Notes under the pieces: generated by a model | The model's input: the letters and a program-made list of their open reading frames with translations, nothing else | Told to the model about the DNA's origin: nothing | Databases searched by the model: none | Position numbers and translations under genes: made by a program | Shown here: positions 40,380-56,629 of the stretch, piece after piece | Layout: each line of letters opens with the position of its first letter | Numbering within the stretch: position 1 is the stretch's first letter | NCBI RefSeq assembly: GCF_003173775.1 | Contig: NZ_CP029552.1 | Span: 3,954,001 to 4,018,000, forward strand | Reading direction: 5' to 3' | Length of the DNA: 64,000 nt | DNA from: Methylobacterium sp. 17Sr1-1 | Lineage (GTDB): Bacteria; Pseudomonadota; Alphaproteobacteria; Rhizobiales; Beijerinckiaceae

Positions 40380-40675
40380 TTTTTCTTCCAAATATCCAAC
40401 CGCTCCCGTGATGGGCGTCCGCCGGTCCAGGGTCAATCGGCAAGACCGAACAATCGGCGACCAAATTCACCCATCAGGCCGATCTCATGGGGATTAAGCT
40501 TGCGAACCACGGATATCGGACGGTCACGCGGAGCCGACATATACAGAAACGCAGTATCGGGACGGTGAGCGGGCGCGCCCGTCGGCGGACCCCGCGCCAC
40601 CGTCCCGTACGGCTCCGCTCGAACCCGAGGCCCGGAACGGCGTTCGCAGACGGATGCAGTGCGGGAGCAGCAGCC

Positions 40676-40894: not shown

Positions 40895-41042
40895 TCCGCT
40901 GGCGGGCCTTCGTCACCTGCGGGCCGACGAAGGCCCCGCCTTCGACGGGCATGGCGGAGCGCGTCAGGGAGCGCGTCATGTCGGAAGCGCCGAATTGGGT
41001 CATGTCGGGGACGGCCCGTGGCGGCGGCCGGTCGTCCGGGGC

Positions 41043-41801
41043 TCAGCGGTAGAAGAACACCGTCCGGTAGCCCTTCACCGTCACCACCTCGACGTCGATC
41101 CCGTAGACCGCGCGCAGGACCCCTGGCGTCACGATCTCCTCCGGCGGCCCCATCGCCACCACCCGGCCGTCGCGCATCGCCACGATGATGTCCGAGTAGC
41201 AGGAGGCGAAGTTGATGTCGTGCAGCACCGCCACGATGGTGCGGCCGCGCTCGTCGACCGCCCGGCGCAGCAGGCCCATCATCGACGCGGCGTGGCGCAT
41301 GTCGAGGTTGTTCAGGGGCTCGTCGAGGAGGATGCAGTCGGTGTCCTGGGCCAGCACCATGGCGATGTAGGCGCGCTGGCGCTGCCCGCCCGAGACCTCG
41401 TCGAGGAAGCGGTCGGCGAGGGGCTCGAGGTCGAGGAAGGCGAGCGCGTCGGCGATGTGGGCACGGTCGGCCGTGGTCAGCCGGCCCTTCGAATGCGGGT
41501 AACGTCCGAAGGCGACGAGGTCGCGGATCGTCACGCGCGCGGCGACGCCGTGCTCCTGGCGCAGGATGCCGAGGCGGCGCGCCAGGACGTCGCCGGGGGT
41601 TGTGCCGACGTCGAGCCCGTCGACGAAGGCGCGGCCGGCGCTCGGCGGCAGGAGCCGGCTGACCATCGAGAGAAAGGTCGACTTGCCGGCGCCGTTCGCC
41701 CCGATCACCGAGACGAAGGCGCGCTCGGCTAAGCGCAGCGAGACGCCGTCCACCACCACGGTGTCGCCGTAGCGGCGCGTGAGGTCTCTCGTCTCGATCA
41801 T
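41043..41801 (-). CDS. siderophore/metallophore ABC transporter ATP-binding protein (YclP/FatE-like)
   Basis: 252 residues. Walker A GANGAGKST (35-43), the ABC signature VSGGQRQRAYIAMVLAQDTDCILLDEPLNNLDMRH with Walker B, and the H-loop VLHDINFASCYSDIIVAM, all typical of the FecCDE/FepC class. The VTIRDLVAFGRYPHSKGRLT stretch is shared with iron-siderophore ATPases of the YclP type. Last gene of the four-gene importer; its start overlaps the permease stop by 4 bp. Cytoplasmic, drives uptake of the loaded metallophore. Confidence 0.92.
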   Translation of the reverse strand: MIETRDLTRRYGDTVVVDGVSLRLAERAFVSVIGANGAGKSTFLSMVSRLLPPSAGRAFVDGLDVGTTPGDVLARRLGILRQEHGVAARVTIRDLVAFGRYPHSKGRLTTADRAHIADALAFLDLEPLADRFLDEVSGGQRQRAYIAMVLAQDTDCILLDEPLNNLDMRHAASMMGLLRRAVDERGRTIVAVLHDINFASCYSDIIVAMRDGRVVAMGPPEEIVTPGVLRAVYGIDVEVVTVKGYRTVFFYR

Positions 41802-42763
41802 TGGGCGCGTCTCGCGAGGAGGACCAGGAGGGTGAGGCCGCCCAGGAACTCGATCACGATCGACAGGGCGGCGTTGAGCGAGAAGACCCGCTCCAGCACG
41901 AGCTGGCCGCCGACGAGCGTGATCGCGGCGACCAGCGCGGCGGCCGGCAGCACGACGGCGTGGCGGTAGCTCGGCATCATCCGGTAGGCGAGGTTGGCGA
42001 CGAGGAGGCCGAGGAAGGTCACCGGCCCGACGAGCGCCGTCGAGACCGACACCAGGATCGCGACGAGGACCAGCACGAGGGTGAGGGTTTTCCGATAGTC
42101 GATTCCGAGCGCGACGGCCTCGTCCCGGCCGAGCAGCAGCACGTCGAGCCGGCCCGACAGCCGCCACGCCGCGACCCCGGCCGCGACGAGGCCGAGGGCG
42201 GCGAGCATGAGCAGGTCCGGGCGGACGGCGTTGAAGTTGGCGAAGTAGCTCGATTGCAGCACGACGAACTGGTTCGGGTCGAGCAGGCGTTGCAGGAACT
42301 GCGACAGGCTGCGGAAGAGCACGCCGCAGACGACGCCGACGAGCAGCAGCCGATGCAGGTTGCCCCCGTTCCGGTTCAGGAGCCAGCGGTAGAGCAGGAG
42401 CGCGAACAGCACCATCGCGCCGGTCTCGGCGAGGAAGCGCAGCCGCGGATCACCGAGGCCTCCCGTCCCGGCCGCGACGACGATCCCGGTCTGGATCAGG
42501 CGGTAGAGCTCGTCGAAGCCCATGATCGCCGGCGTCAGGATGCGGTTGCCCGATACCGTCTGGAACAGCACGGTCGCGGTGGCGACGGCGCCGGCGACGA
42601 GCAGCAGCGAGGCGAGCTTGGTGCCGCGGAACGGCAGCACGAAGCCCCAGCGGCCGTTGGCTCCGACCGTCATGAAGGCGATCGCCAGCCCCAGGGTCGC
42701 GAGGGCGAGGAGTGCGAGCACGGATGCCGGGCTCACGCGCCCCTGCGTCAGGGGACTACGCAT
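41798..42763 (-). CDS. metallophore ABC transporter permease, FecCD family (YclO-like)
   Basis: 321 residues with about nine membrane segments. Features of FecCD permeases: VGANGRWGFVLPFRGTKL, GFDELYRLIQTG, LLGRDEAVALGIDYRKTLTLVLVLVAILVSVSTALVGPVTFLGLLVANLAYRMM. The ABC-ATPase-coupling region is the VALGID segment. It overlaps the upstream permease end by 8 bp. Within the YclN/YclO pair this is the YclO-like member, from position and from its N-terminus. Confidence 0.9.
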   Translation of the reverse strand: MRSPLTQGRVSPASVLALLALATLGLAIAFMTVGANGRWGFVLPFRGTKLASLLLVAGAVATATVLFQTVSGNRILTPAIMGFDELYRLIQTGIVVAAGTGGLGDPRLRFLAETGAMVLFALLLYRWLLNRNGGNLHRLLLVGVVCGVLFRSLSQFLQRLLDPNQFVVLQSSYFANFNAVRPDLLMLAALGLVAAGVAAWRLSGRLDVLLLGRDEAVALGIDYRKTLTLVLVLVAILVSVSTALVGPVTFLGLLVANLAYRMMPSYRHAVVLPAAALVAAITLVGGQLVLERVFSLNAALSIVIEFLGGLTLLVLLARRAQ

Positions 42764-43709
42764 GGCGGGAATCCCGGCGCAGCAGCAGGACGAGGAAGAG
42801 GGCGCTGCCGACGACACCCATCACCGTGCCGACCGGGATCTCGTAGGGGTAGCGGACCACCCGCCCGAGCACGTCGCAGAGGAGGAGCAGCCCGGCGCCC
42901 GAGGCCGCGACGAGCGGCAGGGAGCGGCGCAGGTTGTCGCCCGCCGCCATGGCGACGAGGTTCGGCACCACGAGGCCGAGGAACGGGATCGCCCCCACCG
43001 TGGCGATCGTCACGGCGGTGATGGTCGCCACGATGGCGACGGCGCCCGCGACGGTGCGGCGGTGGTCGAGCCCCAGATTGATCGCGGCGTCGCGGCCGAG
43101 GCCCGCGATGGTGATGCGGTCGGCGAGCCCGTAGGCGACGAGGGTGAGGATGGCCGCGAGCCAGAGCAACTCGTAGCGCCCGCGCAGGACCGTCGAGAAG
43201 TCGCCGGCCTGCCAGGTGCCGAGGAATTGCAGCATGTCGGTACGGTAGGCGATGAAGGTCGAGGCCGATCCGACCACGCCCCCCAGCATGATCCCGACGA
43301 GCGGCACCGTCAGCCGGTCGCGCAGGGGCATGGCGCGCAGCACCCGCAGGAACAGGATGGTGCCGGCAAGTGCGCTCGCGGTCGCCGCCAGCATCTTCAC
43401 CATCACCGGTGCATCGGGGGCGAGGAGCGTGACGAGCAGCATGCCGAGCGTCGCCGACTCGGCGGTGCCCGCGGTGGAGGGCTCGACGAAGCGGTTCTGC
43501 GCCACGAGCTGCATGATGACCCCCGCCACCGCCATGCCGGCCCCGGCGAGGACCAGCGCGAGGGTGCGCGGCACCCGGCTCGCCAGCAGGATGTCCGGCG
43601 CGCCCACGTCGCCGACGCCGACGAGGAGGCTGGCGGCGGCCAGCACCAGGAGCGCGAGGCCCAAGACGAGGCCGACTGGGAGGACGCCGCGGAGGGAGGG
43701 CGGGGCCAT
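42756..43709 (-). CDS. metallophore ABC transporter permease, FecCD family (YclN-like)
   Basis: 317 residues, about nine membrane segments. Typical FecCD blocks: SRVPRTLALVLAGAGMAVAGVIMQLVAQNRFVEPSTAGTAESATLGML, then AGDFSTVLRGRYELLW and AINLGLDHRRTVAG, AIPFLGLVVPNLV. The pattern VAQNRFVEPSTAGTAESA is that of the catecholate/petrobactin-type permeases rather than ferrichrome. Starts 3 bp before the end of the substrate-binding protein gene, so coupled translation is expected. Confidence 0.9.
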   Translation of the reverse strand: MAPPSLRGVLPVGLVLGLALLVLAAASLLVGVGDVGAPDILLASRVPRTLALVLAGAGMAVAGVIMQLVAQNRFVEPSTAGTAESATLGMLLVTLLAPDAPVMVKMLAATASALAGTILFLRVLRAMPLRDRLTVPLVGIMLGGVVGSASTFIAYRTDMLQFLGTWQAGDFSTVLRGRYELLWLAAILTLVAYGLADRITIAGLGRDAAINLGLDHRRTVAGAVAIVATITAVTIATVGAIPFLGLVVPNLVAMAAGDNLRRSLPLVAASGAGLLLLCDVLGRVVRYPYEIPVGTVMGVVGSALFLVLLLRRDSRHA

Positions 43710-43711
43710 GC

Positions 43712-44671
43712 TCAGCGCCGGCCGTCGAGGGCGGCGGCGATCTGGTCGACCGTGGTCTGGAGCGCCCGCAGGCCCCCGGCGGCGAGGTACCAGCTGGCGG
43801 CGTCAACGGACACGACCTGCCCTTTGCGCCAGGCGCTCGTCTGTCGCACCAGCTCGTTGTCGAGGAGCTGGCGCGCCGGCTGGCCGCGCACCCCGATCGC
43901 CGCGTCCCGGTCGAGCACGAACAGCCAGTCCGGGTCGGTCCTGGCGATGAACTCGAACGCGATCGGCTGGCCGTGGATGCCGGCCCCGAGCTCGGTCGCG
44001 GCCGGCCGGAAGCCGAGGGCGCCGTGGATCAGGCCGAAGCGCGAGCCCGGCCCGAAGGCGCTCAGGCGCCCGCCGGTCGAGAGCACGAACAGGGCCGTGC
44101 CGGCCTGCGGGGCCCTGGCGTGGATCGACGCGATGCCGACCTGGATCCGGCCGATTCGCGCCTCGGCCTCCGCCTCCTTGCCGAACAGGCGGGCGAGCGA
44201 GCGGATGTTGCGCAACTCGCTGCCGAGGGGATCGGCGGGGTCGCTCGAGAGATCGATGGTCGGCGCCATCTTCGCCAGCGCCTCGTAGCGCGGCCCCGAG
44301 CGGCCGCCGACGACGACAAGGTCGGGCTCGGCCGCGTTGATCGCCTCGTAATCGGGCTCCCACAGCGTGCCCATCGGGCGGTAGCGCGGCGCGTTGTACT
44401 GCGCGAGGGAGGGCGGCTTCGCCCCGGCCGCGACGCCGAAGACCGGGACGCCGAGGGCGTCGAGGGTATCGAGGGCGGCGAGGTCGAACACGACGATTTT
44501 TTTGGGCGTGGCCGGCAGGGTGGTCTGGCCGCGGGTGTGCTGCACCACGATCTCGGCGGTCGCGGGGGCGGCGCACAACATGGCGAGCAGGAGAGCCATG
44601 AGGTGGCGCCGGGTCGTCTTGAGAGACGGCAAGGTGGGTGTCCTCTGAGGGGCTTGATTGTTGTTTACCAT
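43712..44671 (-). CDS. metallophore-binding periplasmic protein (FatB/YclQ-like)
   Basis: 319 residues. A long N-region and hydrophobic segment (TTRRHLMALLLAMLCAAPATAEI) form a signal; the mature protein has the two-lobe helical-backbone fold: PATPKKIVVFDLAALDTLDALGVPVFGV, then DYEAINAAEPDLVVVGGRSGPRYEAL, LFVLSTGGRLSAFGPGSRFGLIHGALG, and the conserved WRKGQVVSVDAASWYLAAGGL. This is the FatB/YclQ group that binds catecholate siderophores such as petrobactin or their precursors. First gene of the importer and separated from the biosynthetic genes upstream only by a palindromic element (44721-44891). No lipobox cysteine is evident. Confidence 0.88.
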   Translation of the reverse strand: MVNNNQAPQRTPTLPSLKTTRRHLMALLLAMLCAAPATAEIVVQHTRGQTTLPATPKKIVVFDLAALDTLDALGVPVFGVAAGAKPPSLAQYNAPRYRPMGTLWEPDYEAINAAEPDLVVVGGRSGPRYEALAKMAPTIDLSSDPADPLGSELRNIRSLARLFGKEAEAEARIGRIQVGIASIHARAPQAGTALFVLSTGGRLSAFGPGSRFGLIHGALGFRPAATELGAGIHGQPIAFEFIARTDPDWLFVLDRDAAIGVRGQPARQLLDNELVRQTSAWRKGQVVSVDAASWYLAAGGLRALQTTVDQIAAALDGRR

Positions 44672-44720
44672 CGAAATCTGATCGCGAGACCGGCGATCGG
44701 ACGACGATCATGACCCGCTA

Positions 44721-44891
44721 CCCTTTCCCGGACGACTGCAACGAAGTGGAAGGAGATCCGGGATCCAGCGCAAGAAGCCGCGAAGCGCCCGCTTGTCTGC
44801 AACGGTTCAGCATAGAGAGCTGCTTCGCGGCGAGTCCTTCTGCTGGATCCCGGATCTCCGTCCGCTGACGCTGCAGTCGTCCGGGAAAGGG
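44721..44891. repeat. 171-bp palindromic element inside the metallophore island
   Basis: The outer 20 bp are perfect inverted repeats (44721-44740 CCCTTTCCCGGACGACTGCA; 44872-44891), and an inner 18-bp pair is also perfect (44752-44769 GGAGATCCGGGATCCAGC; 44842-44859). The middle 70 bp is unpaired. It shares the GATCC-GGGATCC core with the dispersed elements at 9.3, 20.0 and 27.5 kb but has its own terminal sequences. Confidence 0.9.
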
Positions 44892-44941
44892 TTCAGGCTT
44901 GCAAGTCACTGACAGCCCGGTCGGATCAGGACGCGCACCCC

Positions 44942-45463
44942 TCACCGCACACCCCCCGGCCGCAGCCGCGCCATGCAGTGCACGTCCACGAACGCCCCGT
45001 CCCGAAAACTGGCGGCCCGGTGCGTACCCTCGATCTCGAACCCGAACCGCTCGTAGAGCGCGATCGCCCGGAAATTGTCGACGAAGACCGTCATCTCGAT
45101 CCGGGTGACGTTGAGCCAGTTCTCGGCGGTGTCGATGATCGCCGCCAGCAGCCGCGAGCCGATGCCGCGCCCGGCATAGCCCTCGTTCACGCCGAGCCAG
45201 AACTCCGCCGCGTGGGCGCGCCGGCCGTAGAACGGCCGCAGGGCCGCCGCGCCGACCGCGCGGCCGTCCGCCTCCGCCACCAGGTGCAGGTCCCGCGGAG
45301 AGCGCGGCGTCGCCCAGGCCTTGACCGCCTCGAACGATTCGTAAGGAAGGGCCAGCGTGCCGGAGCGGAAGGCGGGCTGGTTGTACAGCTCGAAGAGGTC
45401 CGGCATGTCGGCCTCGCGCATCGCCCGCACGGTCACGTCCAGGGTCGCCGTCATGCCGGTCAC
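44942..45463 (-). CDS. GNAT acetyltransferase in metallophore operon
   Basis: 173 residues. The acetyl-CoA site is seen in LGVNEGYAGRGIGSRLLAAIIDTAENWLNVTRIEMTVFVDNFRAIALYERFGFEIEGTHR, typical of the RimJ/RimL-like branch. Its ATG overlaps the DUF2218 stop (ATGA), so it belongs to the biosynthetic operon. Rhodopetrobactin and methylolanthanin carry N-acetylated polyamine ends, so this enzyme is a natural candidate for that acetylation; in gene content the operon matches the mll cluster of Methylorubrum extorquens as I remember it. Acetylation is inference. Confidence 0.8.
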   Translation of the reverse strand: MTGMTATLDVTVRAMREADMPDLFELYNQPAFRSGTLALPYESFEAVKAWATPRSPRDLHLVAEADGRAVGAAALRPFYGRRAHAAEFWLGVNEGYAGRGIGSRLLAAIIDTAENWLNVTRIEMTVFVDNFRAIALYERFGFEIEGTHRAASFRDGAFVDVHCMARLRPGGVR

Positions 45464-45738
45464 GCCCAGTCGATCCGCAGCGTCTCGCGGAAGGCGAAGC
45501 GTTCGAGGTGGCGCACGATCACGGCGTGGAAGTCGGGCAACGTCGCCGGATCGGCGACGGTGAGGTCGATCGTCAGCGCCTCGGCATCGGCGGCGAGCCG
45601 GGCTTCGCCCAGGGGCAGGGCGATCCGGGCGGTCGTTGGGTCGAACTCGGTCTCGAACCGGTGCGACCAGTGCTTGGCGAGCTGCTGCAGGTAGCGGCTC
45701 GCATGCGCGGTGCCGACGACGGCGCGGGACTGGATCAT
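45460..45738 (-). CDS. DUF2218 family protein
   Basis: 92 residues. The family, named after proteins such as those beside siderophore-interacting reductases, has the pattern SRYLQQLAKHWSHRFETEFDPTTARI, then LGEARLAADAEALTIDLTVADPATLPDFHAVIVRHLERFAFRE. The start overlaps the AsbDE-like stop (ATGA). Precise function unknown; occurrence with siderophore genes suggests a role in the metallophore pathway or metal release. Confidence 0.85.
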   Translation of the reverse strand: MIQSRAVVGTAHASRYLQQLAKHWSHRFETEFDPTTARIALPLGEARLAADAEALTIDLTVADPATLPDFHAVIVRHLERFAFRETLRIDWA

Positions 45739-47048
45739 GGGAGGCATCCTTCCTCGGCGAGGCTGCGATGGTCGGGGAGGCGGGCCGTCCGCCAGGCCCG
45801 GTAGGCCTCGGACAGCCGGTGCTTGAGCGCGAACTCGGCCGCGTCGAGCGCGTCGAGGCGGGCCATCACCCCGGCGACCTGCGCCGGGTCGGCCGACCGG
45901 GCGAGCTTGAGCACCGCGTAGTGCAGGGCGGTGAGACCGTTCACCAGCGCCTCGATGTCGTCGCAGATCCGCTGGAATTCTGCGTCGGGCCAGGCGAGGG
46001 CGCGCCAGAAAAAGGCGAAGCCGTGCTCGTAGGCCCATTTGCGGATGGTGATGACCGGCAGTTCGCGCAACGCCTCGCCGATGGCGGCGAGCGTCAGCCC
46101 GCCGCGTCCCTCGGCATGGGCCGCCACGATTGCCCGAACCGCGTCGATCAGCGGGTTGGCGTCGAGGACGAAGCAGGCCTCGAAGAAGGCGTCGAGATCG
46201 GCGTCCGCCGGCGGGTGCGCGAGCGAGGGATCGAACCGGTATCCGCCGGCGACGCTGGGCTGGCGGATGGCGTTCAGCATCCGGTCCCGCGCGATTCCGC
46301 CCTCCCAGCGGAAGTCGGGATCGCGCACCTGCCAGGTCTCGGGATCGTCGGTAAGGCTCACCAGCAGGTAGTGCGGGAAAGGGTTCTGGTTGAACTTGTT
46401 CTCCCGCTCCGGCAGGTGGAACATGTCCAGCATCACCATCACGCATTCCTCCGGGCGCCGCCGCGCCAGCAGGTCGATGAGGGTCGCGACGTTCTCGTCC
46501 TTCGACCGGGAAGGGTCGTACCAGGCATGGAGCGGCACGCCGTAGAGCCGCTCGAACCAGTAGCGAAACACCTCGTGGTCCTGGGCATCCGAGTGATAGG
46601 CGAGGCGGAATTCGTCGGTGATGGCGAAGTCGGCGTCCCAGATCAGGGCGTAGAACGGACGGTGGTCGATCCCGCGCGCCTTCAGCCCGTCGCAGACGCA
46701 GCTGACGAAGCAGTGGATCTTCAGGTCGTAGGCCAGCGCGCCGTGGACGCCCTCGGACGGTGCCGCCGCTACGACCGGGGCCTCCGCCGCGGGTTCGCGC
46801 ACGAGCAGCCCGGCAAGGTCGGAGACCGTCGCGAGGTCGCTCCGCGCGATCGCCTCCTCGGGGATCGCGAGGCCGAGGCTCATCTCCAGCGAGAGGACGA
46901 GCTGCAGCACCTGGACCGAATCGAGATAGAGATCCTCGTTGAGCCGCGCCCGCGGCCCGAAACGGTCGAGATGCGGGTGGTGCATCTCGTCGCGCAGGAC
47001 CGTGCCGATGGCCGCGACCGCGTCGTCGCGGGTCAGGGTGGAGATCAC
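45735..47048 (-). CDS. aryl-carrier protein fused to DUF6005 (AsbD + AsbE-like)
   Basis: 437 residues from GTG 47048, overlapping the ligase stop by 4 bp. Residues 1-80 are an acyl-carrier domain with phosphopantetheine serine S44 (LNEDLYLDSVQVLQLVLSLE). The rest (from about 105: HGALAYDLKIHCFVSCVCDGLKARGIDHRPFYALIWDADF to LRELPVITIRKWAYEHGFAFFWRAL) is DUF6005, the AsbE family, which transfers the carrier-bound aryl acid to a polyamine. In the petrobactin pathway AsbD and AsbE are separate; here they are fused, so the aryl group would pass within one protein. Confidence 0.88.
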   Translation of the reverse strand: MISTLTRDDAVAAIGTVLRDEMHHPHLDRFGPRARLNEDLYLDSVQVLQLVLSLEMSLGLAIPEEAIARSDLATVSDLAGLLVREPAAEAPVVAAAPSEGVHGALAYDLKIHCFVSCVCDGLKARGIDHRPFYALIWDADFAITDEFRLAYHSDAQDHEVFRYWFERLYGVPLHAWYDPSRSKDENVATLIDLLARRRPEECVMVMLDMFHLPERENKFNQNPFPHYLLVSLTDDPETWQVRDPDFRWEGGIARDRMLNAIRQPSVAGGYRFDPSLAHPPADADLDAFFEACFVLDANPLIDAVRAIVAAHAEGRGGLTLAAIGEALRELPVITIRKWAYEHGFAFFWRALAWPDAEFQRICDDIEALVNGLTALHYAVLKLARSADPAQVAGVMARLDALDAAEFALKHRLSEAYRAWRTARLPDHRSLAEEGCLP

Positions 47049-48310
47049 GACACCGCCTCCAGGGCGCCGCTGCGGTAGCGCTCGGCGGCTTCGCGGCGGG
47101 AGATCTTGCCGTTGGCCTGGCGCGGGATGGCGGCGACCTGCAAGGCCTCGACCGGGACCTGATGGCCGGCGAGGAAGCGGCGGCACCAGTCCTGGAGCGC
47201 GCGCGGCGGCACCGGCGCCTCGGCGCTGAACAGGAGCGTCACCCGTTCGCCCGCGAAGGGATCGGCCCGGGCGAAGGCCACCGCATCGGTGATGCCCGGC
47301 ATCGCCATCACCACGTCCTCGACCTCGCCCGGATAGACGTTGAGGCCCGAGACGTTGATCGTGTCGCTCCGGCGGGACACGAAGATCAGCATGCCGTCGG
47401 GCAGCCGGTAGCCGAGGTCGCCGGTGCGGACCGTGGCGCCGCCGCTGCCGACCACGATCTCCTCGGGCGCGCCGGCGCTCACGCCCGCCTGGACGCGATG
47501 ATGCGGCAGGGGATAGCCGATCGCGTCCGCCCGTCGCAGGTCGGGGTTCACCGCGATGCAGCCGGCCTCCGAGCAGCCGTATTGCTGGAAGAGGTGCTCC
47601 ACCCGGGCCCGGATGGCGGCGAACCAGGGCGCGGGCAAAAGCGTGCCGGACGTCATCGCCGCATGGAGGCGCTCGCCCTCCGGCATCAGCCGCGCGAGCG
47701 TGTGCAGCATGGCGGGCGAGGTGTAGAGCAGCGGTCGCTCGGTCTCGCGCAGGCGGCGCAGCAGGTACTTCGGGTTGCCGGTATCGAGCACCAGGGGCGC
47801 CCGGCCGCGGCGCAGGCCCACGAGCAGGCCGCAGATCAGCCCGTAGGAATGGGTGATCGGGCAGGCGATGACGGGCGTCATCCCCTCCGGCTCGGCGAAG
47901 GCCGCGACGTAGCTCTCGATCTCGCGCTCGACCGCGCTCCAGGGGCGGGCGATGCATTTCGGCTCCCCGGTCGTGCCGGAGCTCATCTGGAGCAGGTGGC
48001 CCTCGCCCGGCACCGGGGGCGGGGCGTCGTCGAGGCTCTCGCCGTCGAGATCGTCGAGGAAGACCCGGTGGCAGCCGGCCCGGGCGGCGAGCCGCCGGGC
48101 GCCGTCATCCGGCAGGGCCGGATGGATCGGCAGCACGGTCGCGCCGGCCCGGCGGGCGGCCAGGATGAAGGCGAGGCTCGACGCGGTGTCGCGGAACCGC
48201 GCGGCGACCCGTTCGCCGCTGCCGGCCCGCAGGCGGGCGCGCTCGGTGACATGCGCGAGCGTCGCCGCCATCTCTTCCGCCGCGAGGATGCGTCCGTCGA
48301 TCTCGATCAT
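47045..48310 (-). CDS. aryl acid-AMP ligase (AsbC-like)
   Basis: 421 residues. Adenylate-forming enzyme: P-loop MSSGTTGEPKC (about 109-119), ITHSYGLICGLLVGL, FQQYGCSEAGCIAVN (A5 region), TGDLGYRLPDGMLIFVSRRSDTINVSGLNVYPGEVEDV (A7-A8) and the late lysine in PRQANGKISRRE. Size and lack of other domains match AsbC, which activates 3,4-dihydroxybenzoate and loads it onto AsbD. Whether the aryl acid here is 3,4-dihydroxybenzoate or 4-hydroxybenzoate cannot be read by eye. Start overlaps the upstream synthetase stop by 4 bp. Confidence 0.88.
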   Translation of the reverse strand: MIEIDGRILAAEEMAATLAHVTERARLRAGSGERVAARFRDTASSLAFILAARRAGATVLPIHPALPDDGARRLAARAGCHRVFLDDLDGESLDDAPPPVPGEGHLLQMSSGTTGEPKCIARPWSAVEREIESYVAAFAEPEGMTPVIACPITHSYGLICGLLVGLRRGRAPLVLDTGNPKYLLRRLRETERPLLYTSPAMLHTLARLMPEGERLHAAMTSGTLLPAPWFAAIRARVEHLFQQYGCSEAGCIAVNPDLRRADAIGYPLPHHRVQAGVSAGAPEEIVVGSGGATVRTGDLGYRLPDGMLIFVSRRSDTINVSGLNVYPGEVEDVVMAMPGITDAVAFARADPFAGERVTLLFSAEAPVPPRALQDWCRRFLAGHQVPVEALQVAAIPRQANGKISRREAAERYRSGALEAVS

Positions 48311-49995
48311 GAGCCTGTCCGCAGGAGGGGGGAGAGAGGAGGGAAGAGGGCATTGGGCGCGAGGTGGCTGCCATGCGCCTCGCCGAGGCCGAGCTTGCGG
48401 GCGAGCAGCGCCTCCACCCGCAGGCAGGGCACCGCCACTTCCAGCCGGGCGAGCCGGTCCTCCAGCCCGTGCTCGGCCGCGTGGCGGCGCAGGCACCGGC
48501 CGAGCCCGTCCCAGAATCCGGCCTCGTCGAGCCCGTGCCGGCGGGCGAGGAGATGGGTGATCTCGCTCAGGTTGAAGACGAACAGGCTGTCGGTCACCAA
48601 TTCGGCGAGGGTGGCGGCCGCCCGCATGGCGTGGAAGCGGTCGTCCGGCGGCCCGGCATGAGCCGGGTCGATGGCGCCGAGATCCGGCACCGGGGGCACG
48701 TCGCGGAGGAAGTCGGGCGCGTATTCGGCGCTCTCGTGGAAATCACGGCACATCACCCGCTCGGGCCAGCCGTCGCGGTGCACCAGGATCATGTTCTGGC
48801 CGTGCGCCTCGAGCGCCACGCCGTGCGCCACCAGGAGGTGCCAGACCGGCAGCACCGCCACCTCGACCAGCCGGTCGAGCCAGGGTGCGAGGCCGTAACG
48901 ATCGAGCCAGGGCGCCACGAAGGTGCGGCCGTCCGGCTCAAGGGCGCAGAGCGCGTTGAGCGGCAAGGCGGCCTCGCCGGGCGCCAGGACAGGGCTCTCG
49001 CGCCAGATCGCCGCCAGCCGGCCGTCCCGGTCGGCGATCATCGCGGCGTACTCGCGCAGGATCGTCATCCCGGAGAGAGACGGGTCGCCGGCGACGATCC
49101 GGGCGAGCCAGTCCGAGAGCGCCGGCGCGGTCGGGACGAAGGCGGGATCGAGGATCCGCAGGCTCGACGTGCTGACGACGCTCAGGGACAGCTTTACACT
49201 CGGCGCAAGCGGGTCGTCGCACGCGTGGAGCGTGCGCAGGGACTGGCTCGCCCGGTAGCGCGGACCGGCCGTCCCAAGCGCGACGGCCTCGCCCGCCGCC
49301 AGCCGGGAGCGCCAGGGTTCTTGTCCCGCGAGGTGGCGCATCTGCCAGGGATGGACCGGGATGATCGCGTGCGAGACCGGGGAATGGCCGGCCGCGCGCA
49401 GGCGCTCCACCAGCCCGTCCCAATCCGGCCCGAGTACCGCGCGCCAGAACCCGTCCTCGTCGCCCGGCAGCGAGGCGGTCACCAGGAAGCGGGGCAGGGC
49501 GAGCCAGTCGAGGCGGAAGGCGCGCCCGGCTTCCGGCCCGTATGCGGCATGGTCGTCGAGGCCGAAGCCGGTGCGGGCCTTGAAGCAGGGGTGATAGGGG
49601 TGGCCCTCCGAGAGGGCGCCGTCGAGCGCCGCGAAGGGCAGGGCGCGGCGCTCCTGCGCCGGCAGGGACTCGGCGTTCCAGCGGCAGAGCGCGACCGTCT
49701 GCCGGAGCTCCGCGAGCAGGCGCTCGCGGTGCTCCGGAGGGGCCGGCAGGGCCTCGACCAGGTCCGCGAGCCGGGCCGCCTGCCACCCGCCCTCCGCCGC
49801 GACCTCGACCGGCCCGGCGAGGCGGGGGCGGCCGAAGGGGCCGACGTCGCCGGGGGCACGGAAATTCCGCCCACCGAGGCGCCAGTGCAGGGGGCAAGCG
49901 CCGGGCGCGACCTCCGCCGGGGTGTCGCTCAGGCCCTCGAACAGGACCGCCTCCGCGAGCTGCCGCAGCACGCGGTCGTCCGGCGGCTCAAGCAT
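48307..49995 (-). CDS. IucA/IucC-type NIS synthetase (AsbB-like)
   Basis: 562 residues from ATG 49995 (568 from ATG 50013). NRPS-independent siderophore synthetases join citrate to an amine with ATP. Conserved parts: EGHPYHPCFKARTGF, IIPVHPWQM, KLSLSVVSTSSLRIL, and HGVALEAHGQNMILVHRDGWPERVMCRDFHES. It would add the second polyamine arm to the citrate core. It overlaps the preceding synthetase by a few bases. AsbB-like is assigned from order and family type; which reaction each synthetase does is inferred. Confidence 0.9.
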   Translation of the reverse strand: MLEPPDDRVLRQLAEAVLFEGLSDTPAEVAPGACPLHWRLGGRNFRAPGDVGPFGRPRLAGPVEVAAEGGWQAARLADLVEALPAPPEHRERLLAELRQTVALCRWNAESLPAQERRALPFAALDGALSEGHPYHPCFKARTGFGLDDHAAYGPEAGRAFRLDWLALPRFLVTASLPGDEDGFWRAVLGPDWDGLVERLRAAGHSPVSHAIIPVHPWQMRHLAGQEPWRSRLAAGEAVALGTAGPRYRASQSLRTLHACDDPLAPSVKLSLSVVSTSSLRILDPAFVPTAPALSDWLARIVAGDPSLSGMTILREYAAMIADRDGRLAAIWRESPVLAPGEAALPLNALCALEPDGRTFVAPWLDRYGLAPWLDRLVEVAVLPVWHLLVAHGVALEAHGQNMILVHRDGWPERVMCRDFHESAEYAPDFLRDVPPVPDLGAIDPAHAGPPDDRFHAMRAAATLAELVTDSLFVFNLSEITHLLARRHGLDEAGFWDGLGRCLRRHAAEHGLEDRLARLEVAVPCLRVEALLARKLGLGEAHGSHLAPNALFPPLSPLLRTGS

Positions 49996-51784
49996 GCCGG
50001 GACGCCGGAACACGGCCGGACGCGCCCTGCCGTGCCCAATGCCGGAGCGGGTTCGGCATGTCGATATAGGTGCCGGCGCCGTCGGCCGAGGCCAGCTCGT
50101 CGCGGTCGGCGAGGCGCACGCGCAGGTTCGCCTTGGTGCAGAGGGTCGGCCCGTCCAGGACCGAGCGGGCGAAGGCCCGGCCCGGACCGGTCATGCGCCG
50201 GGCGATCGTCTCCAGCCGGCGGGCGAGGTCGTCGAGGAGCACCTCCTCCCGGACGATCCCGTCATGGCCCATCCGGGCCACCACGGAGAAGACCTGGTTC
50301 ACCACGAGGTAATAGGCGAGGCGCCGGCGGATCTCGTCGTCGTCGAAGAAGAGCGACGGGATGGTGCCGGTCTCCGGTACCAGGCGCTGGATCCGCGGGC
50401 GGGCGTCCTCCGACAGGTAGAAGCCCTGGTTGTCGCGGTAGAAGCCCCGGCGCGGCCAGCCGGCGGCGACGTCGAGGAGCGCGTTCTGCTGGTGGGCCTC
50501 CAGGGCGATGCCGTGCCGGTCGTAGAGGGCGACGACCGGTTCCAGCATGCAATCGAGATAGAGGCTGAACCAGGTCCGGCCGGCATGGGCGAGATCCGCC
50601 TGGGCGAGGTCCGTGCCGCCGACCCGTCGCAGCAGGGTCGCGAGCCGCGAGGGACGGCCCGGTACCGGCTCGGCGGTCAGCGCCGCGACGGTCGCGACGC
50701 CGCGCTCCGCCCCGTCCCGGAACGGGTTTTCGCGATACACCGTCTCGAAGCCGCTCTCGGGGTGGCCGGGCAGGTCCAGCGTCATCCAGGCCGGGTCGGC
50801 GACGATCCGGAAGGCGGGATGCTCGGCGCCGCCGCTCCGCGCCAGCAGCCGCGCCACCGCGACCCCGGCCTCCAATTCGGCCTTCCGGTTCACCCGCAGC
50901 GAGTTGGTGAGGGTGACGGGCAGCGAGAACTTCGCCATCCAGTCGCTGTCCGGCGCATAGACCGTGCGCAGGGACGAGGTCGCGGTGAAACGCGGGCCGA
51001 AGGCGCCGAGCAGCCTCAGGTGGCCCGCCTCCACCAGCGCGGCGACGGCCGGCGTCAGCAGCAGCGCCTCGGCCTGGAGCGGATGCATCGGCAGGGCGAT
51101 CTCGCCGGGGCGCAGGGGCAGGCGCCCGGCCTCCGCCCCGAGGAGGTCGCGGGCGATCTCCGGAGCGGAGCGGGCCACCGCCGAATCGTGCCGCACCCGG
51201 GCGGCGTCGGCGGCGAAGACCGCGAGGCGGAACGTCCCGCCCTCCTCGGGCGCGTAGGCGCGGGCCTGCCAGGGTGTGAGGCCCTGGCGGCTCTTCGGCG
51301 TCGGGTGCAGCCAGTGGCCGAAGACGAGCGCGCGCTCGGCCGCGATGAAATCCTCCGTCCCGCCGGGGGCTTGCGCCGCGAGGTCGAGCTGGCGCGCGGT
51401 CTCGCGGTAGCTGTCGAGCACCCGCCCGAGCAGCTCCAGTTCGCGCGCGCGCGCCTTGGTCCCGCCGGCCTCGTCGCAGCGCGCATAGGCCTCGCCGAGC
51501 AGGTCCTGCAGCGCCCGCATCGGTGCGACCGGGCGCCAGCGCGGCTCGTGAAGGTGGCGGGTCCACAGCCGGCCGAAGCCTTGAGCGCCGCAGAGCGAGG
51601 GCGCGACGATCTCGGCCCGGATCGCGACGCGCTGGTCGCGCAGCTGCCACTCGACGCATGAGGCGGGCGGCCCGTCGGGCAGCGCATGGCGCACCGGGAT
51701 GCCGGGATCGATCTCGCGCAGGTAGCCGTTGGCGAAGCTGCGGAACGCCGCCGCCTCGGCGACGGCTTCAGACGGTTGCGGCAT
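49988..51784 (-). CDS. IucA/IucC-type NIS synthetase (AsbA-like)
   Basis: 598 residues from ATG 51784, close to AsbA (about 600). It forms the first amide between citrate and spermidine or a similar amine. Conserved blocks: FGHWLHPTPKSRQGL, IALPMHPLQ, FTATSSLRTVYAPDSDWMAKFSLPVTLTNSLRVNRKAELEAGV, YDRHGIALEAHQQNALLD. First gene of the biosynthetic operon; the promoter region upstream has a TTGACT element and two palindromes. The frame is open to 51922, but that part has no family character. Confidence 0.9.
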   Translation of the reverse strand: MPQPSEAVAEAAAFRSFANGYLREIDPGIPVRHALPDGPPASCVEWQLRDQRVAIRAEIVAPSLCGAQGFGRLWTRHLHEPRWRPVAPMRALQDLLGEAYARCDEAGGTKARARELELLGRVLDSYRETARQLDLAAQAPGGTEDFIAAERALVFGHWLHPTPKSRQGLTPWQARAYAPEEGGTFRLAVFAADAARVRHDSAVARSAPEIARDLLGAEAGRLPLRPGEIALPMHPLQAEALLLTPAVAALVEAGHLRLLGAFGPRFTATSSLRTVYAPDSDWMAKFSLPVTLTNSLRVNRKAELEAGVAVARLLARSGGAEHPAFRIVADPAWMTLDLPGHPESGFETVYRENPFRDGAERGVATVAALTAEPVPGRPSRLATLLRRVGGTDLAQADLAHAGRTWFSLYLDCMLEPVVALYDRHGIALEAHQQNALLDVAAGWPRRGFYRDNQGFYLSEDARPRIQRLVPETGTIPSLFFDDDEIRRRLAYYLVVNQVFSVVARMGHDGIVREEVLLDDLARRLETIARRMTGPGRAFARSVLDGPTLCTKANLRVRLADRDELASADGAGTYIDMPNPLRHWARQGASGRVPASRHA

Positions 51785-51900
51785 GTCGACCAAGCCTCGC
51801 TCCGGCCTCCGGTTGGGGAATTTCGGTGTGTGCAGGGGCGCCGATGCCCGGCGGAGCCGGATCGCCCGCTCGGATGCACCGGATCGCTTCGGGTCCGGGT

Positions 51901-51962
51901 CTATCGCTCGCACGACAGGCAAGAGTCAAGAAAATATGCCGATATTCCGTGCATAGATGCAC
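51901..51962 (-). promoter_or_regulatory. candidate promoter with two tandem palindromes
   Basis: Reading leftward, TTGACT (51929-51924) is followed after 18 bp by GATAGA (51905-51900), a fair -35/-10 pair. Just upstream are AATAT-N4-ATATT (51933-51946) and GTGCAT-AG-ATGCAC (51949-51962), two palindromes arranged head to tail and suited to binding a dimeric regulator. The asbA-like start is about 115 bp downstream. Confidence 0.55.
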
Positions 51963-52064
51963 AGATTTGAACTATTATGAAAACAAAAAAACTCGAAACG
52001 GCGGCCGTCACTCCGGATGTCGCAGATCGAATGCTGAGCGGCGCGCAGGCGTCATCGTGCAGGG

Positions 52065-52099
52065 AGGGGGGAAGGACCGCCTCCGGGTCGTTCCCCCCT
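52065..52099 (-). terminator. hairpin downstream of the TonB receptor gene
   Basis: AGGGGGGAA (52065-52073) pairs perfectly with TTCCCCCCT (52091-52099), 11 bp beyond the receptor stop. No clear T-run, so termination or stabilisation of the receptor message is possible. Confidence 0.55.
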
Positions 52100-52109
52100 G
52101 CCGTCTTAC

Positions 52110-54619
52110 TCAGAAATCCACTGTCGCCGAGACGATGACCGTGCGCGGCGCCCCCACCGCCAGGAAGCCGCGGGCGGCCGAGGCCCAGTAGGAATTGTCG
52201 AACACGTTCTCGACGATGGCCCGCACCGTCACGGGCTTCCCGGAGGCGCCCTCGAAGGTGTAGCGCAGGCCGGCATCGAAGCGCGTCCAGTCGGGTACCC
52301 GCTGCGTGTTGGCCTGGTTGTAGAACTGGCCGCTGGTGTAGATGGCCCGCCCCGTCAGCGTCAGGCCGGGGGCGAGCCACGGCGGCAGGTCGACCTCGCC
52401 GTAGAGGTTGAACGCCACGTCGGGGACGCCGGGGGCGACGTTGCCGTTGAATTGGCGGTTCGCGATGTTGACGAGCCGCCCGTCGAGGAAGGTGACCCCC
52501 CGAGCAGCCGCACCCCCGGGAGCGGCTCACCGAACACCGAGAGTTCGGCGCCGCGGTTGCGCTGCAGGCCGCTGACCGAGAAGCGCCGCGTGGCAGGGTC
52601 GGTGAAGGCGTTCGGCTGCTCGATCTCGAACAGCGACGCCGTGACCGCGAACGTACCGAAATCGTACTTGGCGCCGATCTCCTGCTGCCGGCTGACCGCG
52701 GGCGGGAAGACCTCGTTGGCGTTGATCGCCGCGACCGGTGCGGTCGCCGTCGGCTCCAGCGCCTCGATGTAGTTGCCGTAGAACGACAGGTTGTCGTTCG
52801 GGCGGAACACCGCCGCGATGGCGGGGCTGAACCGGCCGCGCTGGTAGTTCGAGGACAGGTTGCCCAGGCTCGGGCCCAGGGTGGTGTTGTAGCTCTGCTG
52901 ATCGATCTCCTGGAACCGGCCGCCCAGGGTCAGGAGGAAGCGGTCCTCGCCGAGCGACAGGGTGTCGGCGATGCCGACGCTGCGGGCGCTCAATTCCGTG
53001 AACAGCGGCCGGTTGTCGGAGCGCGGCAGCAGCCGGGTGTTCACTGAGCCGCGCGCCAGGTGGATCGGATCGTAGATGTTGGTCTGGAAGGGGGCCGGCA
53101 GGGCCGGCTGGACGAAGCCGCCGCGGTAGTTCCGGTTGTTTGCCTCGACCGCCGAGACGGTCAGGTAGTGGCCGAGCATGCCGGTCTGGAACTTCGTGCG
53201 CAGGCCGACTTCGCCGGTGAGCCCCTGGATCTCCTGCGGCTGGATCGAGAGGGTGTTGGTCGCCTGGCCGGTCAGGCTCGTCACCTGGTAGAACGAGGTG
53301 AGGAAGTCCTCGTTGTAGCGGCTCACGCCGCCGGCCGCGTAGATCGTCGTGTCGGGCAGAATGTCGTACTCGACCCGGCCCGCGGCCATGTTCTGGCGGG
53401 TGTCGATGTATTCGAGCGAGCTCGACGTGTTGAGGCGGTTGTTCGGCGCCCGCGGGATCGGGATGTTCGGGGAGACCGAGTTGAAGAGCGAGGTCGGCGC
53501 CGTGATGTTCTGGCTGTTGTGGACGAGGTCGAGCGAGGCGCGCAGGCGCTCGCCGCGGTAATCGAGGCCTAGCGTCGCGACGCCGACCTCGATGGCGTTC
53601 TTGTCCAGCGGCGTGCTGCCGTTGCGATAGGAGAGGTTGGTGCGCACGCCCCACTCCTTCGACGGGCCGAAGCGGCGGCCGAGATCGGCGTGGGTCCAGA
53701 CCTGCGAATCGCTGAGATACGTGGTGGTGAGACGCGTCAGCGGCTCGTCGTAGGCCCGCTTGGGAATCAGGTTGATCGTGCCGCCGACGCGGCCGGTGCC
53801 GCCGTTGAGGAAGGCGGACGGACCTTTCAGAATCTCGACCCGCTCCACGCCCTCGGTGAACACCCGCCGCGGATTGGCGAGGTAGAACAGGCCGTCGAAG
53901 CCCACGTCGAGGTTCACGACCGAGAAGCCGCGGATGAAGAACGAATCGCGCTCGCTGAACGGCGGCGCGTCGTTGCGCACCGAGGAATCGTTCAGAACCA
54001 CGTCGGCGAGCGAGCGCGACTGCTGGTCCTGGATCAGCTTCTCGGTGTAGCCGGTGACGTTGAACGGCGTCGTCAGCACCGAGCGGTTGCCGAGAAGGCC
54101 GACCCGGGCGCCGGTGGCGACCTGGCCGCCGGCGAAGGGGGGCAGGGGCTGCCCCACCGTCCCGGTCGGCGGCGGCAGGCCCCGCCCCCCGTCGCCGGCG
54201 GCCGCGGGCCCGCCCGCCGGGCGGCCCTCGACGACGATCTCGTCGAGCCGCACCGTCTCCTCGGGCTTTCCCCCGAGCTGGGCGTAGCGCGGATTGACCA
54301 GGGTGAGGGTGGACGGGCTCACCCGTCGATAGCTCAGGCCCGTTCCATCGAGGAGCCGGCCCAGCGCCTCGAGCGGCTGGAACGTGCCCTCGAGGCCGGT
54401 CGTCGTCAGGGCCTGGGTCAGGTCGGTCCCGTAGACGAGCTTGACCTTGGCCTGCTCGGTGAAGCGGACGAGGGCCGGTTCGAGCGGTCCGTTCGGGATC
54501 GACAGGGCGACGGCGTCGTCGGCCCGAGCCGCCGCTGTTGCCATCACCAGCACCGACGCGCCGGCGAGCGCCATCCCGGCCAACCGTCCGCACTGAACCC
54601 TACGCTTGCGCGCCACCAT
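52110..54619 (-). CDS. TonB-dependent outer-membrane receptor with STN domain, frameshifted
   Basis: About 836 residues if the frame is restored. Signal peptide, then an STN domain (residues about 35-110: AVALSIPNGPLEPALVRFTEQAKVKLVYG, LEALGRLLDGTGLSYRRVS) typical of transducers acting through FecR, then the plug (FNVTGYTEKLIQDQQSRSLADVVLNDSSV, RVEILKGPSAFLNGG) and beta-barrel. The main frame ends prematurely after GVRLLGG at six G (six C on the plus strand, 52496-52501); one extra base would join it to VTFLDGRLVNIANRQFNG and the proper C-terminal strand (ending SATVDF, final Phe) at 52110. It imports the loaded metallophore and signals its presence. Homologous neighbours FecR and FecI lie upstream. 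Confidence 0.88.
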
Positions 54620-54748
54620 GTCCGACCACCCCGTCCGTCTGCGCGAAGGGGGGCGGCGTGTTCGCGCGCTCTCGTCCCTTCATGGGCTTGAGATCAACGG
54701 GGCGGCGATCTCCTGACGTCGGATCGTGCATTTTCCGGAAAAAATTTT

Positions 54749-55702
54749 TCAGACGGGCGAGCCGACAAGGACCAGGAGCGGCGTGAGCCGGGTCACGCGC
54801 AGGGACAGGCCGGCAGCGAGGGCGTCGAGGGCCTCGTCGGTGTCGCGCAGGTCGAAGGCGCCGGTGACGCGCCGCTCGCCGGCCTGGCGGTCGAGCAGGA
54901 CGATGCGCCCGCGGCGGTAGCGCCCGAGTTCCGCCAGCACGTCGGACAGGCGCTCGCCGGAGACGGTCAGGCGCCCGTCGCGCCACGCCATCGCGCGGGC
55001 GACGTCCGCCTTTGCCACGTCCACGTTGGCGCCGCCGGCCGCCGGGCCCTCGCGAAACGCCTCGCCGGCCGACACCGCGACGTGCCGGCCTGCCGCCGCG
55101 ACATCGACCCGGCCCTCGGCGACGCCGACCGGCTGCGCGGCGCCGTCGACGCGGACGTAGAACACCGTGCCGACCGCCCGGACGCTGATGCCACCCCCCT
55201 CGACGACGAAGGGCCGGGCGGGATCGCGGGCGACGTCGAACACCGCCTCGCCGCGCAGGAGCGACACCCGGCGCTCGGTGCCGGAGAAATGCAGGGCGAG
55301 GGCGGTGCCGGTATTGAGGTCGACGCGGCTCCCGTCGGGCAGGGTCGCGTGGGCGATGTCGCCGATTCCGCTCCACAGGTCGGAGCGCAGCCAGTCGGCG
55401 AGCCCGGCCTGGAAGGCCAGGGCTCCTCCCAGCACGAGAATCGCGGCAAGGCCGGCAGGACCTTTCTGGCTCCGGCGGACGGAAGCCCGCTCCGGCAGGT
55501 GACCGAGCTGGCGCCACAGCGCATCCATCTCGGCAAAGGCCGCCGCGTGGACCGGATCGGCCGCGAGCCAGGCGTCGAACGCGGCGCGGTCCGCTTCGGT
55601 CGCGTCGGAGGAGGCGAGGCGCACGACCCAGCCGGCCGCCGCCTCGTCGATCGGATCCTCCTCGTCCGGATGATGCGCACCGGTCCCGTCGTCGATGGCC
55701 AA
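54749..55702 (-). CDS. FecR-type anti-sigma/transducer protein, TTG start
   Basis: 317 residues from TTG 55702 (GAGGGAG upstream). Cytoplasmic DUF4880-like N-terminus (DEAAAGWVVRLASSDATEADRAAFDAWLAADPVHAAAFAEMDALW), one membrane segment (GLAAILVLGGALAFQAGLADWL), and the periplasmic FecR domain (HATLPDGSRVDLNTGTALALHFSGTERRVSLLRGEAVFDVARDPARPFVVEG) with a C-terminal STN-binding part. It relays the signal from the STN domain of the receptor to the sigma factor. Lies between both partner genes. Confidence 0.88.
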   Translation of the reverse strand: MAIDDGTGAHHPDEEDPIDEAAAGWVVRLASSDATEADRAAFDAWLAADPVHAAAFAEMDALWRQLGHLPERASVRRSQKGPAGLAAILVLGGALAFQAGLADWLRSDLWSGIGDIAHATLPDGSRVDLNTGTALALHFSGTERRVSLLRGEAVFDVARDPARPFVVEGGGISVRAVGTVFYVRVDGAAQPVGVAEGRVDVAAAGRHVAVSAGEAFREGPAAGGANVDVAKADVARAMAWRDGRLTVSGERLSDVLAELGRYRRGRIVLLDRQAGERRVTGAFDLRDTDEALDALAAGLSLRVTRLTPLLVLVGSPV

Positions 55703-55800
55703 GGCCGGCTCCCTCGCGGGGCCCGCCGATCCCGGACGATCCGGGGATGCGAGCCTCGATCCCTTATGATCGACGGGGCGCCGGAATCCTGACGTGTTCT

Positions 55801-56310
55801 TTAGAAAAGATCGCCGCAGCGGCGGCGGCAATGCAGGAGCGCCTTGATCAGGTGCTTCTCGACCATGTTCCGGCTGACGCCGAGCCGCGCCGCCACCTCG
55901 CCGTTCGGCAGCCCTTCGATGCGCGCGAGGAGGAACGCCTCCCGGCAGCGCGGCGGCAATTCGTCGATGGCGGCAGCGAGCCGCCGAAGATCCTGGCGGG
56001 CCATCGCCTGCTGCTCCGGGAGAGCGTGGCCGTCGGCCAGGCTGGTCCAGTCCTCGTCGCTGACCGGCTGGAAGATCCGGCCCTCCAACCGCTGCCGGTT
56101 GCGCATCCGGCGCGCCACGTTGCTGGCGATCTGGAACAGGAAGGCGGAGGGCTGCTCGATGTTGGTCCGGGTGAGCGCCGCGAGCATCAGGAGGTAGGTT
56201 TCCTGATGGGCGTCAGCCGCGTCGGCCGGATTGCCGAGCCGGCGCGTCAGGAATCGCCGCAGCCTCGCACCGTCGCCCCGATGCAGCGCATCGATCGAGA
56301 CCGCCTGCAT
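55801..56310 (-). CDS. FecI-type ECF sigma factor
   Basis: 169 residues. Sigma-70 region 2 (LRRFLTRRLGNPADAADAHQETYLLMLAAL, then AFLFQIASNVARRMRNRQRLEG) and region 4 (IDELPPRCREAFLLARIEGLPNGEVAARLGVSRNMVEKHLIKALLHCRRR) of the FecI class. It directs transcription of the receptor gene when FecR is activated. Order sigma, FecR, receptor is the standard cell-surface-signalling cassette. Divergent from a DUF4126 gene. Confidence 0.92.
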   Translation of the reverse strand: MQAVSIDALHRGDGARLRRFLTRRLGNPADAADAHQETYLLMLAALTRTNIEQPSAFLFQIASNVARRMRNRQRLEGRIFQPVSDEDWTSLADGHALPEQQAMARQDLRRLAAAIDELPPRCREAFLLARIEGLPNGEVAARLGVSRNMVEKHLIKALLHCRRRCGDLF

Positions 56311-56629
56311 GCCCCAACTCCGAACTTATCTAAACTGGACCTTGATCAATCAATCATCTTGAATACGATCGCACAAGCGCTTGTCGTAGGGTGAGATCTT
56401 CATCGTATTACGTCCAGTTCTAAACTGCGGGAGGTGACTCGGCGCAAGCCGTTGTGTTTCTGCCGGAAATGTTCGGCAACGAAGCCCGCCCCGCCGGGCG
56501 GCCGGACGAAGACCGGCGCGGGAAAATCCTCGGCCTGGTGCAGGAATGCCACGATCGGCCTGGCCGTGACGGGAACACGCCGCGCCGGCGGCGCCTTGTC
56601 CCTCGCGGTACGAGAAGGGAGACGGCATC
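56311..56629. other. sigma factor/DUF4126 divergent intergenic region
   Basis: No gene. Contains the candidate sigma-factor promoter and repeated TCTAAACTG motifs described separately; the DUF4126 side is GC-rich and featureless. Confidence 0.45.
56325..56427 (-). promoter_or_regulatory. candidate promoter and operator of the FecI-type gene
   Basis: Reading leftward, TTGATT (56353-56348) and GATAAG (56330-56325) are 17 bp apart. The 9-mer TCTAAACTG occurs at 56329-56337, inside the spacer and -10, and again at 56419-56427; the upstream copy is part of the palindrome CAGTT-CTA-AACTG, and reads TTTAGAAC on the minus strand, similar to half of the Irr (ICE) motif as I remember it. Overlap with the promoter would suit repression under metal sufficiency. 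Confidence 0.45.

Follow-up and report, generated by a model that had tools for sequence, protein, structure and literature searches.

A rhodopetrobactin/methylolanthanin-type metallophore locus without mllF in Methylobacterium sp. 17Sr1-1, with QuiC and PobA as its possible replacement

Two clusters related to the petrobactin genes asbABCDEF have been described, one for rhodopetrobactin in Rhodopseudomonas palustris and one for methylolanthanin (mll/mlu) in Methylorubrum extorquens AM1. As tabulated in PMC11317620, the former has separate asbB-like and asbC-like genes, a DE fusion, a DUF2218 gene and a GNAT gene, and R. palustris has the AsbF-like gene Rpa1_2628. The mll locus of AM1, which includes mllF (the asbF type), makes methylolanthanin with 4-hydroxybenzoate according to the same source, while the highly similar cluster of M. 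extorquens PA1 makes rhodopetrobactin B, more of it under iron limitation, and was not seen to make methylolanthanin (PMC13251462). We describe here a locus of this kind from Methylobacterium sp. 17Sr1-1, located in a window of 64,000 nucleotides that covers positions 3954001-4018000 of the single contig of this genome (6,542,583 bases, 6.54 Mb). The locus extends over 41043-56310 of the window on the minus strand, and mllF was found neither in it nor elsewhere in the genome. We hold with moderate confidence that it makes a rhodopetrobactin-like iron chelator whose 3,4-dihydroxybenzoate comes from the enzymes QuiC and PobA.

The order of the block is fecI, fecR, TonB receptor, asbA, asbB, asbC, an asbD-asbE fusion, DUF2218, GNAT, a binding protein, two permeases and an ATPase. 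By comparison with petrobactin, the functions of asbA, B, C, D and E are all represented, as two synthetases, a ligase and AsbD-AsbE, but D and E are fused, an acetyltransferase and a DUF2218 protein are added, and there is no asbF beside the synthetases. The D-E fusion, DUF2218, GNAT and the adjacent FecI-FecR-TonB receptor genes (the receptor with a broken frame) are those of the rhodopetrobactin/methylolanthanin subgroup; the separate B and C genes are as in R. palustris, and the AsbF-like gene of that species has no counterpart in either the cluster or the genome studied here. With AM1 the window shares genes of the mllA, mllDE, mllG and mllH types, the FecI-FecR-TonB receptor and the order A, B, C, DE, G, H given in the AM1 table, and it differs in lacking mllF and the mllBC fusion. 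No mllJ (DUF4142) appeared among the block genes scanned with Pfam. The ABC importer that follows the GNAT gene in the window is absent from the MllF-bearing Methylobacterium/Methylorubrum loci within the stretches compared.

An earlier note on this DNA, made from the letters alone, had described a complete petrobactin-like island of the methylolanthanin/rhodopetrobactin type in a likely Methylobacterium, with no AsbF in the window. Its inventory (two IucA/IucC synthetases, an AsbC-like ligase, an AsbD-AsbE fusion, DUF2218, an acetyltransferase, an importer and a FecI-FecR-receptor cassette) is borne out by domain profile matches, and the coupling it had noticed among six biosynthetic genes was recovered from asbA to GNAT as overlaps of 8 bp (A/B) and of 4 bp each (B/C, C/DE, DE/DUF2218 and DUF2218/GNAT). 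The assignment to a nonribosomal peptide synthetase (NRPS)-independent siderophore (NIS) locus of that type, with its own importer and signalling, agrees with AsbB, whose best match among solved structures is petrobactin AsbB, and with the grouping of the cluster with Methylorubrum ones. The genus also agrees: the best AsbDE match, at 97% identity, is Methylobacterium sp. 174MFSha1.1, followed at 85-86% by M. aquaticum, M. currus, M. frigidaeris and M. terricola. The supplement of PMC11317620 presents homologous clusters from M. currus and M. aquaticum. The word "complete" was too strong, because the reading frame of the receptor is interrupted near 52.5 kb.

The absence of AsbF from the window extends to the whole genome, where the best match to MllF reached 22 bits at 27% identity and the genus search gave none at E<=1e-8. 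In Methylorubrum and other Methylobacterium, mllF lies between mllDE and the DUF2218 gene, and it begins 18-78 bp past the DE match in all 58 named loci having it; this constant position makes loss of mllF the simpler reading, rather than gain, although the tree alone cannot separate the two. The gap from DE to DUF2218 measures about 862-1001 bp in seven MllF-bearing Methylobacterium/Methylorubrum loci. At the same place the spacing comparison gives a 4-bp overlap in the window (45735..45738) and about -3 to 60 bp in five relatives. The MllF-less arrangement is retained by all five named relatives of the window's clade with a full-length locus.

Among the named genomes, the best 80 of 208 relatives' loci were kept, so that the sample leans to near kin. 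No match to the MllF hidden Markov model was found in 22 of these 80, and a genome-wide search of the same 22 gave nothing above 36 bits, against 309-418 bits in three control genomes; for the locus L018, which ends just after DE, the absence comes from the genome-wide search only. Two further MllF-negative loci (L096, L097) are re-fetched stretches outside the 22. A FastTree phylogeny built from 81 rows of concatenated A-B-C-DE requires at least 6 changes of the MllF state, 5 of which are forced by starred (well-supported) branches. The MllF-less clade of the window (7 rows, support 100) is joined to the MllF-bearing Methylorubrum clade with support 98, and the larger group around both otherwise holds MllF-bearing rows only. 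To judge from these sequences, MllF loss is common to the window's clade and recurs elsewhere. The loss in Rhodopseudomonas is less sure as a separate event, since the tree output warns of L072 and L092 as long branches meeting each other. L072 itself (Rhodopseudomonas infernalis, 11254-11311) has no MllF and passes from DE directly to the importer, with PobA present and no full-length QuiC, and it offers a natural comparison with R. palustris. Close clusters are also found in Neorhizobium/Rhizobium (L042, L055, L062, L063, L066, L068, L074), with MllF in L055 and L063 and not in the others, so that loss or regain is frequent there.

The genome encodes QuiC, a catabolic 3-dehydroshikimate dehydratase of 639 aa (contig positions 5105044-5106960), which matched 5HMQ with 729 bits over residues 1-631 and whose gene is adjoined by a shikimate/quinate dehydrogenase gene and a shikimate-transporter-like gene. 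It also encodes PobA (647 bits, over the cut-off), which converts 4-hydroxybenzoate to 3,4-dihydroxybenzoate. The earlier note had taken the missing AsbF as leaving room for another aryl group such as 4-hydroxybenzoate and had suggested searching for a 3-dehydroshikimate dehydratase and a chorismate lyase; the first was found, as QuiC, and the second gave no genome match to UbiC (PF04345), a weak negative, as this model recovered a single one of 14 control genomes, that of E. coli. The inference towards 4-hydroxybenzoate is weakened because the genome holds both QuiC and PobA. QuiC and QsuB dehydratases are known for quinate and shikimate breakdown, and a role in metallophore supply is what we propose here.

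In a survey of 111 genomes of the genus, a full AsbDE was present in 24 (a 25th match, G080, of 21 bits, was dropped), and MllF in 15 of these 24; two MllF matches of at most 39 bits in AsbDE-negative genomes were also dropped. Full-length QuiC was found in 9/9 of the MllF-less carriers and in 0/15 of the MllF-bearing ones, and PobA in 9/9 and 2/15, respectively. Matches to the C-terminal half of QuiC alone, which is 4-hydroxyphenylpyruvate dioxygenase-like, were not counted, nor were those of five AsbDE-negative genomes with 30-33% identity over residues 5-262 approximately. Over wider samples, QuiC was searched in 47 of the 80 named genomes, Methylobacterium included, and found in 17/21 MllF-less vs 17/26 MllF-bearing genomes; PobA was searched in 64 genomes (the 24 genus carriers, plus 16 MllF-less and 24 MllF-bearing genomes from elsewhere) and found in 24/25 vs 19/39. 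QuiC or PobA is present in each of the 25 MllF-less genomes tested. When 55 tree rows were compared, MllF-less against MllF-bearing, with Fisher tests that ignore kinship, the counts were 19/23 vs 17/32 for QuiC (0.043), 22/23 vs 17/32 for PobA (0.0007) and 23/23 vs 21/32 for either enzyme (0.0014). In these rows QuiC was scored for L018, L022-L024 and L026-L028, and PobA for every named Methylobacterium/Methylorubrum row, from the genus-survey genomes with the same match contig coordinates. QuiC in broken or split frames (MllF-bearing L044 and L055) was counted as present, as was the L087 match to PobA of 523 bits, which is below the family cut-off.

Several observations weigh against a supply of the aryl acid by QuiC and PobA. 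QuiC scores 821 bits to NF042435, below the equivalog cut-off of 1200, and its gene is about 1.1 Mb away from the cluster. The exclusion between QuiC and MllF within Methylobacterium is one phylogenetic event, and of the 87 genus genomes without a full AsbDE, 14 have full-length QuiC too (8 with at least 88% identity), which makes it a clade trait and not a partner of the cluster alone. Outside Methylobacteriaceae the difference between MllF-less and MllF-bearing genomes disappears for QuiC (12/16 vs 17/24, p=1.0), and on these counts the idea that MllF loss is broadly tied to QuiC beyond Methylobacterium was rejected; PobA (15/16 vs 17/24, p=0.11) and either enzyme (16/16 vs 21/24, p=0.26) do not differ significantly there. 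Five independent pairs scored for either enzyme gave a mean of 2.4 for and 0 against, a number of pairs that cannot reach significance. Four MllF-less genomes (L068, L072, L083, L086) have no full QuiC. The receptor frame of the window strain is broken. The catabolic dehydratases for which PMC9324987 gives measurements, QsuB and Qa-4 (QuiC not among them), are faster and less product-inhibited than AsbF; their Km is 0.6-1 mM, vs about 0.04 mM for AsbF, and for this reason enzymes of this type may need a large substrate pool. The acid may also come from another enzyme or be taken up from outside.

Taking these points into account, we retain the supply by QuiC and PobA as the preferred explanation, with a mechanism built on what is known of petrobactin, rhodopetrobactin and the Fec families. 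QuiC would dehydrate 3-dehydroshikimate, or PobA would hydroxylate 4-hydroxybenzoate, to give 3,4-dihydroxybenzoate, which AsbC would load onto the AsbD carrier and AsbE would couple to a polyamine; AsbA and AsbB would fix two such arms to citrate, and the GNAT enzyme would acetylate the polyamine. The metal-loaded chelator would then be taken up again by the TonB receptor and ABC importer, and FecI-FecR would amplify receptor expression.

The enzyme that would choose the acid is the AsbC-like acyl-adenylating protein (47045..48310), with 508 bits to NF006167 (cut-off 513), a model that we take to stand for AsbC. Its AlphaFold model (predicted local distance difference test score 87) has the fold of adenylating enzymes, and among the ten best rows of VIA-align there were seven aromatic-acid ligases (MenE, McbA, 4-coumarate and 4-chlorobenzoate), McbA being counted by what we assume to be its substrate, and three malonyl- or prolyl-activating enzymes, so the fold does not decide the substrate. 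The profile search returned NRPS alignments only, and the pocket was thus left unmapped on a solved aryl-acid ligase. Between MllF-less Methylobacterium and MllF-bearing Methylobacteriaceae, 10 columns share no residue, 2 of them within residues 106-300, and residues 105-256 are 82-90% identical to those of seven MllF-bearing relatives. AsbC differs little from the enzymes of these relatives and, as far as its sequence indicates, has no clear sign of a new substrate.

The best surviving alternative, which we consider unlikely, is a chelator of the methylolanthanin type whose arms would be 4-hydroxybenzoate and whose main cargo would be lanthanides, MllF loss having removed the source of 3,4-dihydroxybenzoate. 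The homologous mll locus of AM1 does make methylolanthanin (PMC11317620), but AM1 uses 4-hydroxybenzoate despite having MllF, so that the loss of MllF does not predict this acid, and the product of PA1 cited above speaks for rhodopetrobactin B from a highly similar cluster. PobA would use up 4-hydroxybenzoate, and no UbiC was found in the genome, with the limit already given for this model (1/14 controls) and with PF04345 as the chorismate lyase family searched. The genome also encodes two XoxF homologues (contig positions 6185249-6186865 and 2628948-2630510), scoring 1111 and 897 bits against 6oc5, which is a lanthanide-dependent XoxF that we take to be from M. extorquens. The organism could therefore use lanthanides, although the presence of XoxF says nothing on the cargo of the cluster; M. 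nonmethylotrophicum (L031), which judging by its name presumably does not use methanol, carries the same cluster. Two further pyrroloquinoline quinone (PQQ) alcohol dehydrogenases (L113, L114) were typed to family level.

Concerning the metal, the binding protein resembles siderophore binders. According to PMC12780827, lanthanides seem to be precipitated by methylolanthanin as well as by rhodopetrobactin B under biologically relevant conditions, the latter compound being the tighter iron binder. We infer that iron is the likelier cargo, a lanthanide role for the locus being possible. M. aquaticum 22A depends on a different, staphyloferrin-B-like cluster to grow at low iron and on methanol (PMC9301485).

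It is somewhat less probable still that the locus is decaying and that no working metallophore system is left in the strain. mllF is absent and the frame of the TonB-dependent siderophore receptor (52110..54619; TIGR01783, 227 bits, cut-off 223.5) is split in two: 52361-54619 encodes the first 708 residues, and the last 128 or so, ending at 52110, lie in another frame, the two meeting near 52.5 kb. In M. frigidaeris the receptor is one open frame of 873 codons, and the part past the break in the window is 95% identical to it, so the break would be recent or a sequence error. The N-terminal part of the receptor matches the corresponding part of FecA, in keeping with a signalling domain. The remaining block genes are open frames, the biosynthetic ones tightly overlapping, and the clade retains the MllF-less arrangement, as described above. 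The ratio of nonsynonymous to synonymous substitution rates (dN/dS, Nei-Gojobori) was 0.07-0.43 for 11 genes, fecR and the receptor being left out, in comparisons of the window with two relatives and of two other relatives with each other; the eleven genes are under purifying selection.

The weakest alternative, that an unrecognised enzyme elsewhere in the genome, such as a non-QuiC protein of PF01261, replaces AsbF, is improbable: there are six PF01261 matches in the genome, four over the cut-off, and a 269-aa protein (L004) gave 38 bits against the QuiC model, but of those examined further L004 is a weak single-domain match only and L001 scores above the cut-off as a 2-oxo-tetronate isomerase (362 bits), and QuiC is already a full-length candidate.

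All remaining features of the block are likewise on the minus strand. The FecI-type extracytoplasmic function (ECF) sigma factor for surface signalling (55801..56310) has Pfam Sigma70_r2 and r4_2 domains and dN/dS of 0.08-0.14 in three comparisons. It is followed by the FecR-type anti-sigma factor (54749..55831; PF04773 and PF16220), whose true start is uncertain and likely downstream of 55831, the long reading being interrupted by stops in 3 of 5 relatives. The intergenic region upstream of asbA (51785..52109) has conserved blocks in an alignment of 6 sequences. The AsbA-like (IucA/AcsD-type) NIS synthetase (49988..51784; PF04183, PF06276) finds its best solved matches in the IucA (144 bits) and AcsD (118 bits) synthetases, and the AsbB-like one (48307..49995; PF04183, PF06276) matched petrobactin AsbB (3to3) with 278 bits. 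The AsbD aryl carrier fused to AsbE (DUF6005), with a GTG start, lies at 45735..47048 (PF19468, 458 bits; AsbD model NF005798, 68 bits, below the cut-off of 100). The MllG-like DUF2218 protein (45460..45738; PF09981, 106 bits) has a possible alternative ATG at 45747, and the MllH-like GNAT acetyltransferase (44942..45463; PF00583) is 75-89% identical to its counterparts in 13 named Methylobacterium/Methylorubrum loci. The importer consists of a siderophore-type periplasmic binding protein (43712..44671; PF01497), two FecCD-type permeases (42756..43709 and 41798..42763; PF01032, 198 and 152 bits) and the ABC transporter ATPase (41043..41801; PF00005), with 233 and 213 bits to the FecE and FhuC models, below their cut-offs. 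The binding protein matched YclQ (3gfv) with 200 bits and was outscored by two chains, 8bf6 (244 bits, labelled simply as ABC transporter) and 8b7x (siderophore-binding protein, 208 bits).

As for the limits of the block, BLASTN similarity to 3 of the 5 relatives (L017, L020, L031) runs from 56470 to 41036-41043, the upstream flank compared being 142-367 bases only; for L016 and L019 it extends beyond both ends. A tRNA scan of the window found none, which leaves no tRNA-borne island boundary. A gene for a ROS/MUCR-type regulator (39882-40436) lies immediately beyond the block and is also on the minus strand. Upstream of fecI (56290-56560) it was possible to see a CAGTTTAGAAC-like block and a second CAGTTTAGA-like copy, mostly conserved in 6 sequences, where the site of a metal-responsive regulator is possible. 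From the conserved blocks upstream of fecI and asbA in these sequences no metal regulator could be named.

In genome mining, asbAB together with asbF has served as the mark of petrobactin-like producers (PMC8776838). Searches that require asbF would miss producers without AsbF or call them incomplete, and the synthetase genes are kept in the 22 loci without AsbF/MllF among the best 80 of 208. No publication on AsbF-less clusters was found in the open-licence literature. If the supply by QuiC and PobA is true, the breakdown of plant compounds and the uptake of metal would be coupled in these bacteria, and there would be a test for why highly similar mll loci yield rhodopetrobactin in one strain and methylolanthanin in another. 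A bolder and quite speculative extension is that MllF loss ties the head group to the aromatic diet: precursors of protocatechuate (quinate, shikimate and others) would lead to a catecholate iron siderophore, and otherwise AsbC would load 4-hydroxybenzoate to give a lanthanide-binding chelator. If that were true, plant compounds would set which metal the bacterium collects.

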